Positions 45,245 through 51,590 of a stretch of 64,000 bases of DNA are shown here, in pieces. This DNA comes from Solwaraspora sp. WMMA2065 (GTDB lineage Bacteria > Actinomycetota > Actinomycetes > Mycobacteriales > Micromonosporaceae): contig NZ_CP128361.1 of assembly GCF_030345075.1 (NCBI RefSeq), positions 186,001-250,000 on the forward strand, given 5' to 3'. Below the pieces are notes generated by a model. It worked only from the letters and a program-made list of their open reading frames with translations, ran no database searches and had not been told where the DNA came from. The translations under genes and the position numbers were made by a program. Every line of letters starts with the position of its first letter. The first letter of the stretch is position 1.

Positions 45245-45315
45245 TCCACAGTTGAGTCAGTATCCACAGTCTGTCGTCCGCTCGTCGAGGCCCTGCCCCG
45301 GTCGGGTGCCAGGTT
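45245..45315 (+). promoter_or_regulatory. Paired TCCACA operator and -10 of the M23 peptidase
   Basis: TCCACAGT occurs at 45245-45252 and 45263-45270, start to start 18 bp. A -10-like CAGGTT lies at 45310-45315, 6 nt before the ATG. The proximal TCCACA ends 41 nt before this hexamer. The same layout occurs before yraN and before the comM leader frame. Confidence 0.6.
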
Positions 45316-45321
45316 GTCGGC

Positions 45322-45879
45322 ATGAGAATACTGCTCCTGCCGATGCTGGTAGCGACGATCCTGTTCAGCACTGCGCCCGCGGTCCCCGCCACGGCGTTGG
45401 TCGCCGCTGCCGGACCACCACCGACCGGGTCCGCGCGCCCAGCTGCAGACCCGCGTTTCCATCCGCCACTGGCCGGGGCCGTCACGCTGAGCCGCCGGTT
45501 CGACCCGCCCCCGGTGCCGTGGGGGCGCGGACACCGGGGCGTCGATCTCACCGCCGACGTCGGCGCCACCGTGTACACCGCTGGAGCCGGCACGGTCAGC
45601 TACTCCGGTCGGATCGTCGACCGGGGCGTGGTGAGCATCAGTCACCCGGGTGGGTTCAGGACCACCTACGAACCCGTGGACGGCTGGCTCGCCGTCGGCA
45701 CCGCGGTCAGCGCCGGTCGTCCGATCGGCACCGTTACCGAAGGCCATCCGGGTTGTCCTGCCGACGCGTGCCTGCACTGGGGCCTGCGGCTGACGGACGG
45801 CAGCTACCTTGACCCGTTGCTGTTGCTCGGCAACGGACGTGTCCGCCTGCTGCCGCTCGGGTCAGCCGGCCCGGTGTAG
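45322..45879 (+). CDS. M23-family peptidoglycan endopeptidase
   Basis: 185 residues. A signal peptide (MRILLLPMLVATILFSTAPA) is followed by a compact LytM domain: RGHRGVDLTADVGATVYTAGAGTVSYSGRI, VSISHPGGFRTTYEPV and CLHWGLRL, which hold the zinc histidines and Asp. It would cut peptide cross-bridges of the cell wall outside the membrane. ATG at 45322, probably leaderless, behind the paired TCCACA operator. Its end overlaps the convergent aminotransferase by 18 nt. Confidence 0.9.
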   Translation: MRILLLPMLVATILFSTAPAVPATALVAAAGPPPTGSARPAADPRFHPPLAGAVTLSRRFDPPPVPWGRGHRGVDLTADVGATVYTAGAGTVSYSGRIVDRGVVSISHPGGFRTTYEPVDGWLAVGTAVSAGRPIGTVTEGHPGCPADACLHWGLRLTDGSYLDPLLLLGNGRVRLLPLGSAGPV

Positions 45880-47070
45880 CAGCGTGGGCAGCAGTTCCGC
45901 GAGCCGGTCGTAGTCTGCTGCCCGGTTGTACACCTGAGCGCAGATTCGCAGCCACGCCCGACCGGACCACCAGGCGACCGACACCTCGGTGGCCAGCTCG
46001 TCGGCGATCCGACGACGCAGCGCGGCCGCTGCGGCAGCGCTGTCGGCCGCGCCGGCCGGTAGCGGGACCAGCCGCATGGCCAGCTGGGCCGACTCTGGCC
46101 GGCGCGGATCGGGTACCGGGAGCCGCTGCGGCGGGACCCCCAGCGCATCGGCGATGGTCCGCTGGCCGTAACCGGCCAGTGCGGCGTTGTGCGCCCGGAC
46201 CCGGTCCAGGCCGAGGCTGCGCAACGCGTACAGGCCAGCCGGCGCAGCCAGCCACGCGGTGTAGTCACGGGTGCCCTGCCACTCCACCCGCGACGGGAAC
46301 CCGGATTCCTGCTCCCAGGAGACCCCCAGCGGCTCTAACCGTTCCCGCCACCGGGGCGCGACCGCCAACAGCGCCGTGCCGCGCGGCGCGAACGCCCACT
46401 TGTGCAGGTTGCCCACCCAGAAGTCGGCGCCGATCCGGTCGACCTCGACCGCCAGCATCCCCGGTACGTGGGCGGCGTCGACCAGGACCGGTACGCCGGC
46501 GTCACGGGCTACCGGGACCAGCTCGGCGACCGGGAACACCTGTGCGGTCGGCGAGGTGACCTGGTCGACCACCAGCAGCCGGGTCTGGCCCGGCCGGAGC
46601 GCGGCGCGCAGCCGCTCGACGACCTCCTCAGCCGGCGCCCCCAGCGGCACGGCTACGACGCGTGCCGTCGCGCCAGTGCGTCGGCACTCCCGCTCGACCG
46701 AGAGCGCGACCGCGCCGTACCCGTGGTCGGTCAACAGCACCTCGTCACCGCTGCCCAGACGCAGCGTCTGCAGCACGGTCGCGGCGGCGACGGTGACGTT
46801 GTCGACCAGTGCGGCGCACTCCGGGTCGGCACCGAGGAAAGCGGCCAGATGGCGGCGGGTGTGGCCGATCCGGTCCAGCAGACCCTGGGTGAAGAACCGC
46901 TGCGGGTCGGCCTCCATCTCGTCGCGTAGCCGCTGCTGCACCCGCTGCACCGTGACTGGGACCGCGCCGAACGCGCCGTGGTTGAGGTGGGTGACCGCCG
47001 GGTCGAGGGAGAACAGCATCCGTGCCCCAGGTAGCGGTTCGGGTGGGACCAGGCCGCCGCTCATCGGCAT
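45862..47070 (-). CDS. Class V PLP-dependent aminotransferase
   Basis: 402 residues, resembling isopenicillin-N-epimerase and cysteine desulfurase-like enzymes. HLNHGAFGAVPVTVQ at the N-terminus, VDQVTSPTAQVFPV and VDAAHVPGMLAVEVDRIGADFWVGNLHKWAFAPRG, with Asp and the PLP Lys (HKW). Reaction unknown. ATG at 47070; ATG 47064 is also possible. It is last in the yraN-comM-dprA-xerC direction, 59 nt after xerC. Confidence 0.85.
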   Translation of the reverse strand: MPMSGGLVPPEPLPGARMLFSLDPAVTHLNHGAFGAVPVTVQRVQQRLRDEMEADPQRFFTQGLLDRIGHTRRHLAAFLGADPECAALVDNVTVAAATVLQTLRLGSGDEVLLTDHGYGAVALSVERECRRTGATARVVAVPLGAPAEEVVERLRAALRPGQTRLLVVDQVTSPTAQVFPVAELVPVARDAGVPVLVDAAHVPGMLAVEVDRIGADFWVGNLHKWAFAPRGTALLAVAPRWRERLEPLGVSWEQESGFPSRVEWQGTRDYTAWLAAPAGLYALRSLGLDRVRAHNAALAGYGQRTIADALGVPPQRLPVPDPRRPESAQLAMRLVPLPAGAADSAAAAAALRRRIADELATEVSVAWWSGRAWLRICAQVYNRAADYDRLAELLPTLLHRAG

Positions 47071-47129
47071 ATCGTAGGCGAGCCGTCTCGGCCCGGTCCG
47101 GTGAGCAGCCCCTCCCCGGGCCGGCAGCC

Positions 47130-48131
47130 TCAGGCCCGCGGATGGGCCTGCCGGTACGCCGCCCGCAACCGTTCCACCGACACGTGGGTGTAGAGCTGGG
47201 TGCTGGCCAGCGAGGCGTGCCCGAGCAACTCCTGGACCGATCGCAGGTCGGCGCCACCCTCCAACAGGTGGGTGGCCGCCGAGTGGCGCAGTCCGTGCGG
47301 GGTGACGCGGGGTACACCCGCGTCGCGGGCAGCCGCGGTGACGATGCGGCGTACCACCGTGGCCTGGAGCCGGCCGCCCTTCGCGCCGAGCAGTAGCGCC
47401 TCGCCGGAGTGGGGCGACGCGAGCGCTGGTCGCCCATGAACCAGCCAGTCGTGGAGCGCCGCCCCGGCCGGCACTCCGTACGGCACGGTCCGCTCCCGGC
47501 CGCCCTTGCCCAGCACCCGGAGTACCCGCCGGCCCGGGTCGAGGTCGGCGAGGTCGAGCCCGCAGAGTTCGCTCACCCGGACCCCGGTCGCGTACAGCAG
47601 CTCCAGGACCAGTCGGTCGCGCAGCCGCAGCGGGCCGTCCGGACCGGTGCCGGTCGGTTCCCGGGTCTGTTCCCCGGCCGGCTGAGCCTGCGAGCCGGTG
47701 CCGTCGCCGTGCGGCATCAGCTGCGCGGCCTGCTCGACGCGCAGCACCGCCGGCAGCGTCCGGTGCGGCCGAGGGCTGGCCAGGGCCGCACCGGCATCGG
47801 CGCCGGTCAACCCGCTGCGGTGCGCCCAGCCGCTGAAGGCGCGTGCGGCCGCCGCCCGCCGGGCCAGCGTGGCCCGGGCGGCGCCGAACGTCCGTTGCCT
47901 GGCCAGCCAGCTACGCAACACCGTGATGTCGAGCCCGGCGGGGGAGTGGACCCCCATCCGGGCTGCGTGATCGAGCAGCGACACGACGTCACCGACGTAC
48001 GCCCGTACGGTGTGGGCCGAACGGTTGTCGACCAGAGCGAGGTGCCGCGCGAACGCGTCCACGGCGTCGCGCAGGCCGGACGGCAGACCGGCGTGCCGCG
48101 CGGCGGTGCCCCGGCTGTCGTCGTCGCTCAC
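47130..48131 (-). CDS. xerC: Tyrosine recombinase XerC
   Basis: 333 residues. An N-terminal SAM-like domain ([25 protein letters not shown]) leads to the catalytic domain with Arg in [13 protein letters not shown], Lys in [39 protein letters not shown] with the nucleophilic Tyr. It resolves chromosome dimers with XerD. GTG start overlaps the dprA stop (GTGA). It carries a Gly/Gln/Thr-rich insertion between the domains. Confidence 0.92.
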
Positions 48132-49387
48132 TTCCCGACCGTCGGCCCGGCGGCCCGATCGGTCAAGTCGCCACGCCGGCCGACCCCGGTGCCGGACCGT
48201 GGCGGCAACCGGTAGCGCCCGTCCGCGCCGGTGAGCAGCCCTCGGGCCTGCAGCGCGGAGACCGAACGCATCGCGGTGCGGATGTCGACGCCGGCCCGGC
48301 CGGCCAGCTCGTCCAGGTCGACCGAGCCGCGGCCGGGAACCGCCTCCAGGACCCGCGCCGTCTGGGGATCGAGCGAGTCACGGGGACGCTCGGGCCCGCG
48401 CGGTGGCGGTGCGAGGTCGATACCGATCCGGCCGATCTCCTCCTGCACGTGGGCGACCCCGGCGACGAGCCGGGCCTGCGGGTGGTCGCGCAGAATCTCG
48501 TGACAGCCGACAGACACGGCGGAGGTGATCGGCCCCGGCACCACCATGGTCGCCCGGCCCAGGGCCAACGCGCGCCGGACCGTCTGGGCGGCCCCGCTGC
48601 GGGCACCGGCCTCGACCAGCACGGTCCCGGCCGTCGCGGCGGCGATCAACCGGTTGCGGGTGAGGAACCGGTGCCGCAGCGGCTCGGCGCCGGGCAGCCA
48701 CTCACTGACCAGCAGCCCGGACTCGACGATCTGGTCGAACATCGCCGTGTTGCCGGTGGGGTACGGCCGGTCGATCCCGCAGGCCAGCACCGCCACCGTG
48801 CTGCCGCCAGCGGCGAGCGCACCGCGATGGGCGCAGGCGTCGATGCCGTACGCACCTCCGGAGACGATCGTCCAACCCTGCTCGGCAAGGCCGTGGCCGA
48901 ACTCCATGCTGACGTGACGTCCGTACTCGCTGGGCGCCCGGGAGCCGACCACGGCGACCGACCGGGCCAGCGCCTCGGCGAGCGGCAACGGCCCACGGAT
49001 CCACATGGCCAGCGGGGGCGCGCCGCCCCGGGAATCTCCGAAACCGGCACCGCCCGACCCCCCGCCGGGGCGACGGGCCAGCCGGGTCAGGTCCTCAACC
49101 TGGCACGGCCAGTCCGGATCGTCCGGCGTCACCAGCCGGGCGCCGACCCGCGCCGCCCGGTCGAGGGCGGCGGCGGCCACCTGCAGCGGATCGGCGGTCG
49201 CCAGCCGCGCGGAGCTCGCCGTCCGGGTCGGGTCGTCCGGGCTCCGCCCGGCGCGCAGCCGGGCCAGCGCCTCGACCGGGCCGACCGCCCCGACGAGCCG
49301 GTGAACGGCTTCGTTTCCGGGCTCGGCGAGCCAGGTCAACGCGATCCGGGCCAGCCGGCTGCCGGCCGTCTCGGCGCCCGGCATCAC
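48128..49387 (-). CDS. dprA: DNA processing protein DprA
   Basis: 419 residues. DprA loads RecA on incoming single-stranded DNA during transformation. The Rossmann core has [40 protein letters not shown] and [34 protein letters not shown]; a winged-helix-like C-terminal domain follows ([28 protein letters not shown]). GTG 49387 or ATG 49384 are both coupled to the comM stop. Confidence 0.94.
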
Positions 49388-50901
49388 AGCTCGCCCGTCC
49401 GCAGCTGGATGGCTTCGTCGATGTCGGCCGAGTCCGGCCGGGACCGTCCGTCCAGGTCCGCGATTGACCAGGCGAGTCGCAGAATGCGGTCGAAGCCCCG
49501 GGCGGAGATCGCACCGACGTCCAGCCGGCGGCGCAGTGCGGCGGTCTCACCGGCGGGCAGCCGCCACGGCGGGCGTCGCAACGCGGGCCCGGGGACCACC
49601 GAGTTGGTCCGCCACCCCTGGTTGGCCCAGCGCTGCCGGGCGGCCTCGCGGGCGGCGGCCACCCGGTCGGCGACCGTCGCGGTCGGTTCCGCCGGCGTCT
49701 GGGTCGTCATCAGGTCCACGGCCCGCAGCGCGGTGAGGCTCACCTGCAGGTCGATGCGATCCATCAGCGGACCGGACAGTCGGTTGCGGTAGCGGCGCCG
49801 TACCACGGGCGGGCACTCGCAGAGCTGGTCGCCGGCCGGTCGGGCGCACGGGCACGGGTTGGCCGCCAGCACGAGCTGGCACCGGGCGGGGTACTCGGTG
49901 ACCCCCAGGGCGCGGGTGATCAGCACCCGCCCCTTCTCCAGCGGCTGCCGCAACGAATCCAGCACCCGGCCGTGGAACTCGGGTGCCTCGTCAAGGAACA
50001 GGACGCCGTGGTGAGCCAGCGAGACCGCGCCGGGGCGGGCCAGCCCGGAACCGCCGCCGACCAGCGATGCGACGGTCGCCGAGTGGTGCGGGGCCTGGAA
50101 CGGCGGTCGGCGTAGCAGGGCGCTGCCCGGTGGCAGCACCCCGGCGATCGAGTGCAACGCGGAGACCTCCAGCGCCGCCGCGTCGTCCAACGGCGGCAGC
50201 AGGCCGGGGAGCCGTTCCGCCAGCATGGTCTTGCCGGCACCGGGCGGCCCGATCAGCGCCAGGTGGTGGCCGCCGGCTGCGGCGATCTCCAAGGCCCGCT
50301 TGCCGAACGCCTGCCCGGCTACGTCCGCGAGGTCCGGGCCGGCCTGGATGGTGCCCGGCTTCGGTGGCGGCGGATCGAGCAGCTCGCCGGCGCCACGGAT
50401 GAACGCGATCAGCCGGTGCAGCGTGTCGACGGCCTTGACCCGGACTCCCGGCACCACCGCCGCTTCGGCCGCGTTCGCGGCCGGCACCACCACCTGGGTC
50501 ACCCCGGCCCGGGCTGCGGCCACCACCATCGGCAGCAGCCCGCGCACCGGTCGTACGGTGCCGTCCAGGCCCAACTCGCCGAGCAGCGCCACACCGTCGA
50601 CCGGGGCGAGCGGCAGCTCTCCGGTGCCGCCGAGCAGCGCGGTGGCCACTGCGAGATCGAACCCCGAACCGACCTTGGGCAGCGTCGCCGGTAGCAGGTT
50701 GACGGTGATCCGCCGGTTCGGCCAGTGCTGCCCGGAGTTGACGATCGCGGCGCGTACCCGGTCCCGTGCCTCATGCAGGGTGGTGTCCGGCAACCCCGAG
50801 ATGATCACTGCCGGGAGCCCAGCGGCGAGGTCGGCCTCCACCTCCACGAGATGTCCGGTGACGCCGACCAGACCGACGCAGAGCACCTTCGCGTAGCTCA
50901 T
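49384..50901 (-). CDS. comM: Mg-chelatase-like AAA+ ATPase ComM/YifB
   Basis: 505 residues. An N-terminal Lon-like domain (GLPAVIISGLPDTTLHEARDRVRAA) precedes the AAA+ core with GPPGAGKTMLAERLPGL, FRAPHHSATVASLVGGG-type sequence, HHGVLFLDEAPEF and ANPCPCA, then a C-terminal magnesium chelatase domain. ComM is a hexameric helicase that extends strand exchange in natural transformation of proteobacteria. ATG at 50901 overlaps the stop of a leader frame. Start of the comM-dprA-xerC operon. Confidence 0.92.
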   Translation of the reverse strand: MSYAKVLCVGLVGVTGHLVEVEADLAAGLPAVIISGLPDTTLHEARDRVRAAIVNSGQHWPNRRITVNLLPATLPKVGSGFDLAVATALLGGTGELPLAPVDGVALLGELGLDGTVRPVRGLLPMVVAAARAGVTQVVVPAANAAEAAVVPGVRVKAVDTLHRLIAFIRGAGELLDPPPPKPGTIQAGPDLADVAGQAFGKRALEIAAAGGHHLALIGPPGAGKTMLAERLPGLLPPLDDAAALEVSALHSIAGVLPPGSALLRRPPFQAPHHSATVASLVGGGSGLARPGAVSLAHHGVLFLDEAPEFHGRVLDSLRQPLEKGRVLITRALGVTEYPARCQLVLAANPCPCARPAGDQLCECPPVVRRRYRNRLSGPLMDRIDLQVSLTALRAVDLMTTQTPAEPTATVADRVAAAREAARQRWANQGWRTNSVVPGPALRRPPWRLPAGETAALRRRLDVGAISARGFDRILRLAWSIADLDGRSRPDSADIDEAIQLRTGEL

Positions 50902-50984
50902 CGCCCGGTCTCCACCGGTGGGCCGTCCGTCGTGGAGGGTGGTCGGTCGTCGGTGCGCGGCGGGCGGCGGATGTCGTTTCTCAT
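50898..50984 (-). CDS. 28-residue leaderless leader frame of comM (hypothetical)
   Basis: An ATG at 50984 opens a frame starting MRNDIRRPP; its TGA (50900-50898) overlaps the comM ATG (50901) in an ATGA junction. A GACCGT hexamer lies 6 nt before the ATG, and the paired TCCACA boxes lie at -54 and -72 from it, exactly as for two neighbouring genes whose start codons are the inferred transcription starts. That makes this the likely transcript start of the comM operon. Confidence 0.5.
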   Translation of the reverse strand: MRNDIRRPPRTDDRPPSTTDGPPVETGR

Positions 50985-50990
50985 GGCTCG

Positions 50991-51061
50991 ACGGTCGCTG
51001 TCGGCGACCCGGGCGCCGGGCCGGGAAGGGGCGCGCCTGTGGACAAAGGTCCCGCTGTGGA
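50991..51061 (-). promoter_or_regulatory. Paired TTGTCCACA operator of the comM operon
   Basis: On the minus strand, two perfect TTGTCCACAG sequences lie with their TCCACA cores at 51061-51056 and 51043-51038, 18 bp apart. The proximal core ends 41 nt before GACCGT (50996-50991). TTGTCCACA is the actinobacterial DnaA-box consensus. Confidence 0.65.
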
Positions 51062-51091
51062 CAACGCGGCGACCGGTCGATGCCGGATGCT

Positions 51092-51119
51092 AGGCAACGG
51101 CTGCCAGGCAACGGCTGCC
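51092..51119 (+). repeat. Two tandem copies of a 14-bp unit
   Basis: AGGCAACGGCTGCC is repeated head to tail upstream of comM, downstream of yraN. No function apparent. Confidence 0.7.
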
Positions 51120-51141
51120 AGCCGACGCCGACCGGTCGGGC

Positions 51142-51165
51142 GACGGTGGTCAGAAGACCGCCGTC
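51142..51165 (-). terminator. Hairpin straddling the yraN stop
   Basis: GACGGTGGTC-AGAA-GACCGCCGTC forms a 10-bp stem with one G-U type pair and overlaps the yraN stop codon. It may separate yraN from comM. Confidence 0.45.
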
Positions 51166-51512
51166 AGGTGCCGGACCTGGGCCGCGCCGGACCGACCGAC
51201 GGTCACGCAGATCAAATCGAATCGCACCGGCCGCCGGCCATGTCCCGGGTTCGCGGCCAGCCAGCCGGCGGCCAGCCGGCGGATCCGCCGGGCCTTGGCT
51301 GTGGTGACCGCTTCCTCCGGCGCGCCGTAGCGGCCACTGCGGCGGGTCTTCACCTCGCAGAACACGATGGTGTCGGCGTGCCGGGCGATGATGTCGATCT
51401 CGCCGGCCGTACAGCGCCAGTTGCGTTCGACGACGACGAGCCCGGCGTCGATGAGGTGCCGTACGGCGCAGCGTTCGCCGTAGGCGCCGACGGCCTGCCT
51501 GATGTTGGTCAT
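51150..51512 (-). CDS. yraN: YraN/UPF0102 endonuclease-fold protein
   Basis: 120 residues, restriction-endonuclease-like fold: GAYGERCAVRHLIDAGL, WRCTAGEIDIIARHADTIVFCEVKTRRSG (the D-x-n-E-x-K core) and RFDLICVTV. The biochemical role is not settled; it is nearly always beside comM and dprA. ATG at 51512, probably leaderless (CACTTT 7 nt upstream), with a paired TCCACA operator. Confidence 0.88.
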   Translation of the reverse strand: MTNIRQAVGAYGERCAVRHLIDAGLVVVERNWRCTAGEIDIIARHADTIVFCEVKTRRSGRYGAPEEAVTTAKARRIRRLAAGWLAANPGHGRRPVRFDLICVTVGRSGAAQVRHLTAVF

Positions 51513-51519
51513 GTCTGGC

Positions 51520-51590
51520 AAAGTGCCCGGCGGTGACGGCCGATGTCGGGTGCGGTACGCCGTGGTTGTGGACGGCGGGCAGGCTGTGGA
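51520..51590 (-). promoter_or_regulatory. Paired TCCACA operator and -10 of yraN
   Basis: On the minus strand GTCCACAGCC and GTCCACAACC carry TCCACA cores at 51590-51585 and 51572-51567, 18 bp apart. The proximal core ends 41 nt before CACTTT (51525-51520), which is 7 nt before the ATG. It lies in the divergent region with the membrane protein gene at 51719. Confidence 0.6.

Follow-up and report, generated by a model that had tools for sequence, protein, structure and literature searches.

The question raised by this locus is why three promoters of the actinobacterium Solwaraspora sp. WMMA2065, those of an M23 peptidase gene, of yraN and of a comM-dprA-xerC operon, carry the same pair of TCCACA boxes, and which regulator might act through them. 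We analyzed a window of 64,000 nucleotides (nt; contig NZ_CP128361.1, positions 186,001 to 250,000), in which an initial annotation had noticed the three pairs and had found no other. Exact matches to TCCACA-N12-TCCACA lie at 45245-45268 on the forward strand and at 51038-51061 and 51567-51590 on the reverse strand, where they had been reported, with zero mismatches. The window contains 14 TCCACA boxes on both strands together. Six of these make up the three pairs, each with a pitch of 18 base pairs (bp), and the remaining eight form no same-strand pair within 100 bp, so the claim that there is no other such pair is correct. Dinucleotide shuffles, in which only hits with at most two mismatches were scored (four found against 3.2 expected), therefore say nothing about exact pairs.

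In all three promoters an nAnnnT hexamer, which we take as the inferred -10 element, follows the proximal box after 41 nt, as had been proposed. For the M23 peptidase, the distal box (45245..45250, +) and the proximal box (45263..45268, +) are followed by CAGGTT (45310..45315, +) and by a gene with a near-leaderless start (45322..45879, +; PF01551, E-value 3.4e-13). For yraN, the boxes at 51585..51590 and 51567..51572 precede CACTTT (51520..51525) and another near-leaderless gene (51150..51512; UPF0102, PF02021, E-value 1.9e-29), all on the reverse strand. The boxes of the comM promoter (51056..51061 and 51038..51043, −), both within the sequence TTGTCCACA, precede GACCGT (50991..50996, −). 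The start codon 6-7 nt after the hexamer is that of the gene itself for the M23 peptidase and yraN. For comM one correction is needed: the codon 6 nt after the hexamer (50984) opens a leader open reading frame (ORF), and the real start is at 50901.

We then scanned the complete 6.74-Mb genome. The exact N12 pair occurs nine times, compared to two for the reversed control pattern, and among all 36 TCCACA pairs with spacers of 4-30 bp, nine have N12, two have N13, and the other 25 spacings share 25 pairs with at most four each. Seven of the nine N12 pairs lie upstream of the M23 peptidase gene, comM-dprA-xerC, yraN, recA, a gene of AbiEi/DUF559 type, comEA, and an ssb; the remaining two (L008/L009) are an 18-bp tandem repeat. 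Widening the scan to spacers N11-N13 plus a G after the box added two N13 sites, upstream of the Flp-pilus genes ssd (TIGR03815, E-value 7.9e-113) and tadA (TIGR03819, E-value 1.7e-145), for a total of nine promoter sites (seven N12 and two N13) scattered over several parts of the chromosome. By family, seven of the nine genes or operons belong to pilus, uptake, recombination or wall functions (M23, comM-dprA-xerC, recA, comEA, ssb, ssd, tadA), and yraN encodes a nuclease-like protein without known function. A PF00154 match lies closely downstream of the recA pair, and domain searches found ComEA SLBB and HHH_3 domains in the comEA product, SSB in that of ssb, and T2SSE in that of tadA. The comEA gene is followed by an overlapping 819-codon ORF (comEC by eye) and a holA-like ORF (by eye). 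The ninth target has an AbiEi-type N-terminus (E-value 9.2e-5, below the cut-off), and its operator-bearing relatives (L253, L098) carry a C-terminal DUF559 domain above the cut-off. In a second genome of the same genus (G114), nine pairs resemble the nine sites one for one by eye, four of them having been read.

A shared operator precedes genes of the uptake machinery and of recombination: comEA, ssd, tadA, ssb, recA, comM-dprA, and yraN. We consider it probable, at roughly 85%, that these box pairs serve as the operator of a regulon for DNA uptake (competence) that is present in many families of the class Actinomycetes. The sites found beyond the window, at recA, comEA, ssb, ssd, tadA and the AbiEi/DUF559-type gene, together with an operator-to-nAnnnT distance that is kept in many orthologous promoters, lend strong support at the level of sequence to the initial proposal that one regulator controls a competence-like regulon through weak promoters with near-leaderless starts.

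The operator is conserved at orthologous genes in relatives, with gaps. We used 80 named loci, the output of a scan for ComM relatives, which contain 107 direct TCCACA pairs at most 60 bp apart. Of these, 89 have a pitch of 17, 18 or 19 bp (23, 33 and 33, respectively), whereas four control words gave 0-13 pairs without a peak at 17-19 bp. An exact pair with a spacer of 9-15 bp within −300 to +60 of the gene start was present for yraN in 50/78 loci, for the M23 gene in 34/57, and for comM in 4/80, after exclusion of loci with less than 150 bp upstream (yraN 2/80, M23 6/63, rnhB 11/46, lepB 5/51). None was found by this test upstream of seven neighboring genes (dprA 0/78, xerC 0/53, rpsB 0/65, tsf 0/63, rnhB 0/35, lepB 0/46, an aminotransferase gene 0/31). 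By group, the yraN pair is present in 33/36 Micromonosporaceae, 11/12 Geodermatophilaceae, 1/1 Frankiaceae, and 1/3 unplaced actinobacterial metagenome-assembled genomes; in Streptomyces it is exact in 4/21, including a case located 203 nt upstream, and another 14 have it at one mismatch. The M23 pair is present in Micromonospora (12/12), the Actinoplanes group (6/8) and Streptomyces (13/20).

For comEA, recA and ssd we examined the best 30 loci each, the three scans having matched 59, 41 and 41 genomes. An exact N11-N13 pair precedes comEA in 23/30 and recA in 11/30 of these loci, and was found in 0/450 antisense control windows of the same comparison. Upstream of ssd, in loci with 18 family labels, TCCACA occurs 47 times in the forward orientation and three times reversed; direct pairs are present in 19 of the 30 loci, with a pitch of 18-21 bp in nine and of 28-33 bp, about one helical turn longer, in ten. 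The longer pitch recurs at comEA in two genomes of family label f6, where the boxes are 29 and 31 bp apart and are followed by TAGCGT and, shortly after, by an ATG. At least one exact N12 pair was found in 117 of the 121 genomes of the family sample. Pairs were also seen in relatives upstream of a ComF-like phosphoribosyltransferase gene (L067, PF00156) and of an RcpC/CpaB-like pilus gene (L252, below the cut-off).

Several results weigh against this reading. The yraN pair is missing in all five loci of the Arthrobacter group (Arthrobacter, Pseudarthrobacter; Micrococcaceae), and the M23 pair was found in only 1/9 Geodermatophilaceae and 0/3 Asanoa. Among the best 30 loci, the exact pair is absent from the searched stretch in 19 for recA and in seven for comEA (two of these have N14 by eye), and 11 ssd loci lack a pair, six family labels showing none. 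Three genomes of family label f4 have no strand bias at comEA (3 to 3). In 38 comEA loci of other classes the boxes are not enriched (forward/reverse 9/5 in 33,000 bases and 4/1 in 10,644), and two pairs occur there, at 30 and 11 bp. Of the 11 N12/N13 hits in the own genome, two belong to the tandem repeat. The pair, with nAnnnT at 39-41 nt, also stands upstream of relatives' genes without an obvious uptake role, namely pmm (L084, L097, L105) and genes for DUF4192 (L078), WXG100 (L025 by eye, L087, L096) and S8 peptidase (L095, L103 by eye) proteins. Finally, in 30 family loci only 8/32 pairs have nAnnnT at 40-42 nt, the only offsets scored there, and for this reason many single hits are to be regarded as chance, coding or oriC boxes.

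Could the whole pattern be chance, or a spill-over of oriC-type boxes near the origin? Exact hits in the relatives do include many in coding DNA, in oriC-like or gyrA regions, or in dispersed repeats. The counts argue otherwise: the genome-wide excess over the reversed pattern, the empty antisense windows and the seven neighboring genes without a pair all place the frequency above chance, and the own sites are spread over several chromosomal regions. Pairs recur upstream of yraN, M23, comEA and recA orthologues in close relatives, a recurrence on which the initial annotation had made its proposal depend. We regard chance or spill-over as highly improbable.

Less exact sites were not retained. 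Allowing one mismatch gave 30 hits in the genome compared to 51 for the control; the 21 new sites resemble background, with nAnnnT at 39-42 nt in one of them, and were rejected as regulon members. We likewise rejected the own-genome pairs at 4845863 (N14), 5479629 (N16) and 1583170 (N17) and three boxes at 6235474, none of which by eye combines a matching geometry with an evident gene. The second of these (5479629-5479666), which by eye lies between lsr2-like and clpC-like genes, consists of two forward boxes with a spacer of 16 plus one reversed box, and its pair sequence recurs in G114. In one genome (G007; L065, L067-L073, L075, L076, L079, L080) a dispersed repeat carries the box pair, with 15 copies among the fetched loci. 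A conserved stretch that includes ACGTTCGCCCC and, by eye, an inverted sequence rich in G+C comes after the pair, and no gene is evident. Three other genomes (G004, G026, G083) contain 34-58 exact pairs each.

The geometry of the promoters bears on what the operator does. We assembled 114 promoters picked by the pair alone (yraN 48, M23 27, comEA 24, recA 11, comM 4), with a looser counting rule that gives 24 rather than 23 comEA pairs. In 109 of the 114, the proximal box is followed by an nAnnnT hexamer at 28-31 or 38-42 nt, these ranges having been fixed after inspection of 78 of the promoters, while offsets shifted by +14 or −14 give seven and six (the −14 shift covers eight offsets, the others nine). 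The two distance classes differ by one helical turn, and the distance from the distal box to the -10 is mostly 46-48 or 56-59 nt, again about one turn apart. In yraN promoters the start codon mostly follows the hexamer by 7-8 nt (27/39 hexamers). A profile of 110 promoters, in which the comEA and recA rows had been preselected for nAnnnT at the expected offsets, gives boxes of the g(T/C)(T/C)GTCCACAG type and contains no conserved spacer sequence, extra half-site or common -35 element. A fixed helical phase, a weak -10 and the absence of a -35 would fit the needs of an activator that contacts RNA polymerase, and judging from this geometry the operator likely activates transcription.

Instead of activating, the boxes might repress, insulate or titrate DnaA. 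Titration is indeed a property that DnaA boxes outside oriC can have. Here the boxes are placed farther upstream than the -35 region, and the -10 stands at two distances one helical turn apart; simple blocking or titration is disfavored because neither would require two phased distances. We consider this alternative very unlikely and return to activation as the preferred function.

Two candidates for the activator, DnaA and a dedicated transcription factor, are given equal weight, and on sequence grounds each has nearly an even chance. If DnaA is the activator, it would bind a wide-gap box pair and contact RNA polymerase, and competence would follow replication status. If a dedicated factor of the class Actinomycetes is responsible, its site would resemble the DnaA box by chance, and it would be coincidental for an independent factor to match that box at about ten positions, the 3' G among them. 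As a reference for DnaA boxes we took the 1000 nt that follow dnaA in 29 family loci, of which 27 contain TCCACA, with 306 boxes in all. The frequency of T at the second and third positions before the core is 0.54-0.62 in operators and 0.55-0.58 in boxes after dnaA, compared to 0.19-0.23 in unpaired boxes of the named loci. For G after the core, the values in these three sets are 0.84-0.89, 0.66 and 0.29, respectively. The resemblance is incomplete, since before the core the boxes after dnaA have A about as often as G, whereas the operators prefer G. In the own genome, DnaA alone was found to have a DNA-binding domain of the DnaA type; a DnaA-like paralogue was rejected as the regulator, since at E-values up to 0.1 no second protein carries the domain. 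For a dedicated regulator no candidate gene emerged, no unbiased search having been made; among the products of the own operator-bearing genes, only the AbiEi-like N-terminus, below the cut-off, hints at one.

Spacing divides the two candidates. Passages of a study in Escherichia coli report that DnaA favors boxes 2-3 bp apart and that one extra base pair at purH greatly lowers binding (PMC11317965). Here the 9-mers are separated by 8-10 bp, in other cases by 11-12 or 19-24 bp, which is unlike the E. coli double box and favors a dedicated factor. The own genome does contain exact pairs whose gap is 2-3 bp, at 4786171 (close to dnaA), 4766751 and 4930578, none at an operator promoter. For DnaA, as named in the initial annotation, the 9-mer sequence of the boxes fits, and their spacing departs from the E. 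coli rule. The variable pitch and the lack of spacer conservation are compatible with independently bound monomers, as the DnaA candidate would allow. A dedicated activator would be in keeping with the strong forward orientation and with the fixed distances to the -10, and the operator is not enriched at the 38 comEA loci of other classes, though DnaA is universal. A review on DnaA as a transcription factor treats it as an established activator and repressor elsewhere, and its main text never uses the word "competence" (PMC8203912). We propose tentatively, at somewhat less than even odds, that natural competence in Actinomycetes has DnaA as its direct master activator, acting through a wide-gap double DnaA box phased with the -10; if DnaA does regulate, this double box would be a previously undescribed arrangement.

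In the promoter plan that we propose, two direct TCCACAG boxes, mostly at a pitch of 17-19 bp (20-21 or 28-33 bp at ssd and comEA in some other families), would be followed at 28-31 or 38-42 nt by an nAnnnT -10, with no conserved -35 and with the start codon often about 7 nt past the -10. The initial annotation had suggested a tandem dimer, but monomers may fit at least as well because the boxes are asymmetric direct repeats; the activator would bind each asymmetric box as a monomer and recruit RNA polymerase from a fixed helix face. This would switch on jointly ssd and tadA for the Flp pilus, ComEA-ComEC, SSB, RecA, ComM-DprA-XerC, YraN, the M23 wall peptidase, and the AbiEi/DUF559-type gene, and we infer that the cells would become transformable.

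Within the comM operon of the window, all on the reverse strand, the 28-codon leader ORF (50898..50984) ends in a stop that overlaps the comM start (ATGA), and it is also present in G114. Near-leaderless short ORFs with the same ATGA overlap precede comM at L284 and L205, and the one in Plantactinospora mayteni has 13 codons. The overlap suggests translational coupling of the leader ORF with comM. The comM/yifB gene (49384..50901) encodes a Mg-chelatase-like AAA ATPase (TIGR00368, E-value 5.4e-138) and is directly followed by dprA (48128..49387; TIGR00732, E-value 2.2e-60) and, downstream of it, by a xerC-like tyrosine recombinase gene (47130..48131; PF00589, E-value 1.7e-41; TIGR02224, E-value 4.2e-83, below the curated cut-off). 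Elsewhere in the genome, ssd and tadA lie about 3 kb apart (L429, 4257500-4268500), each with its own operator, and by eye XRE-type regulator-like and antitoxin-like genes stand between them. The AbiEi/DUF559-type gene (L432, 2789500-2792500) is apparently split, with its N-terminal and nuclease-like parts in different frames by eye. In four genomes (G001, G020, G032, G036) the recA frames are 732-773 amino acids long and the listed RecA match stops at profile position 198, a pattern that an intein would produce.

Studies of competence have so far covered few actinobacteria, and the conserved operator provides a predicted member list for an actinobacterial competence regulon. It could be used as bait for the regulator and as a promoter reporter for inducing conditions, and it hints at a role for the widespread gene yraN and for the M23 peptidase. 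If DnaA is the regulator, replication would be tied directly to gene acquisition, and the state of replication initiation would decide the production of Flp pili, ComEA/ComEC, SSB, RecA, DprA/ComM, and the wall peptidase.

The operator can be compared with several known systems. With DnaA-regulated promoters (E. coli purH, polA and mutH/DARS2; Bacillus subtilis sda) it shares TTRTCCACA-like boxes in direct repeat, but it differs in a gap of at least 8-10 bp rather than 2-3 bp and in targets for DNA uptake, DnaA being only a candidate binder here. Operators of the OmpR or SARP type are direct repeats with a pitch of about 11 or 22 bp, unlike the 17-19 bp that predominate here or the less common 20-21 and 28-33 bp. 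Actinobacterial DNA-damage promoters controlled by LexA or PafBC have recA in common with the proposed regulon, whereas the operator differs in sequence and place from the LexA and PafBC motifs; the pooled 110-promoter profile contains no second position-fixed element or palindrome, and no scan for LexA or PafBC motifs was made. Among the recA promoters (L396-L425), some have by eye an SOS-like sequence nearby, and several have TGTCGG-N9-CTAGCGT together with the operator, which we take to resemble a PafBC element.

An experimental parallel is Micrococcus luteus, with its tad and comEA/comEC genes: passages of one study report that transformation needs the tad (Flp) genes, that tad and comEA/comEC cooperate, that the combination is frequent in actinobacteria, and that no homologues of the B. 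subtilis ComK cascade were found, and these passages describe no operator or regulator (PMC4322843). A mutant screen, as described in part of its report, sought loci altering comEA/EC expression (PMC8467076), and a paper of January 2026 states that the competence regulon is unknown and that upstream signals and the regulatory cascade are still to be identified (PMC12849477). Among the matches listed in open-access literature on the motif, on DnaA and competence, on actinobacterial competence regulation, on transformation of Streptomyces and Micromonospora and on comEA regulons of mycobacteria, the operator is not described in any title or abstract. In the well-known competence regulons, those of ComK in Bacillus, ComX/SigX in streptococci and Sxy/CRP-S in Haemophilus, one regulator controls the uptake machinery together with ssb, recA, dprA and comM. 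The regulon proposed here differs from them in its operator and in pilus genes of the Flp/Tad type, and would resemble them in placing the uptake machinery and the recombination genes under a single switch.

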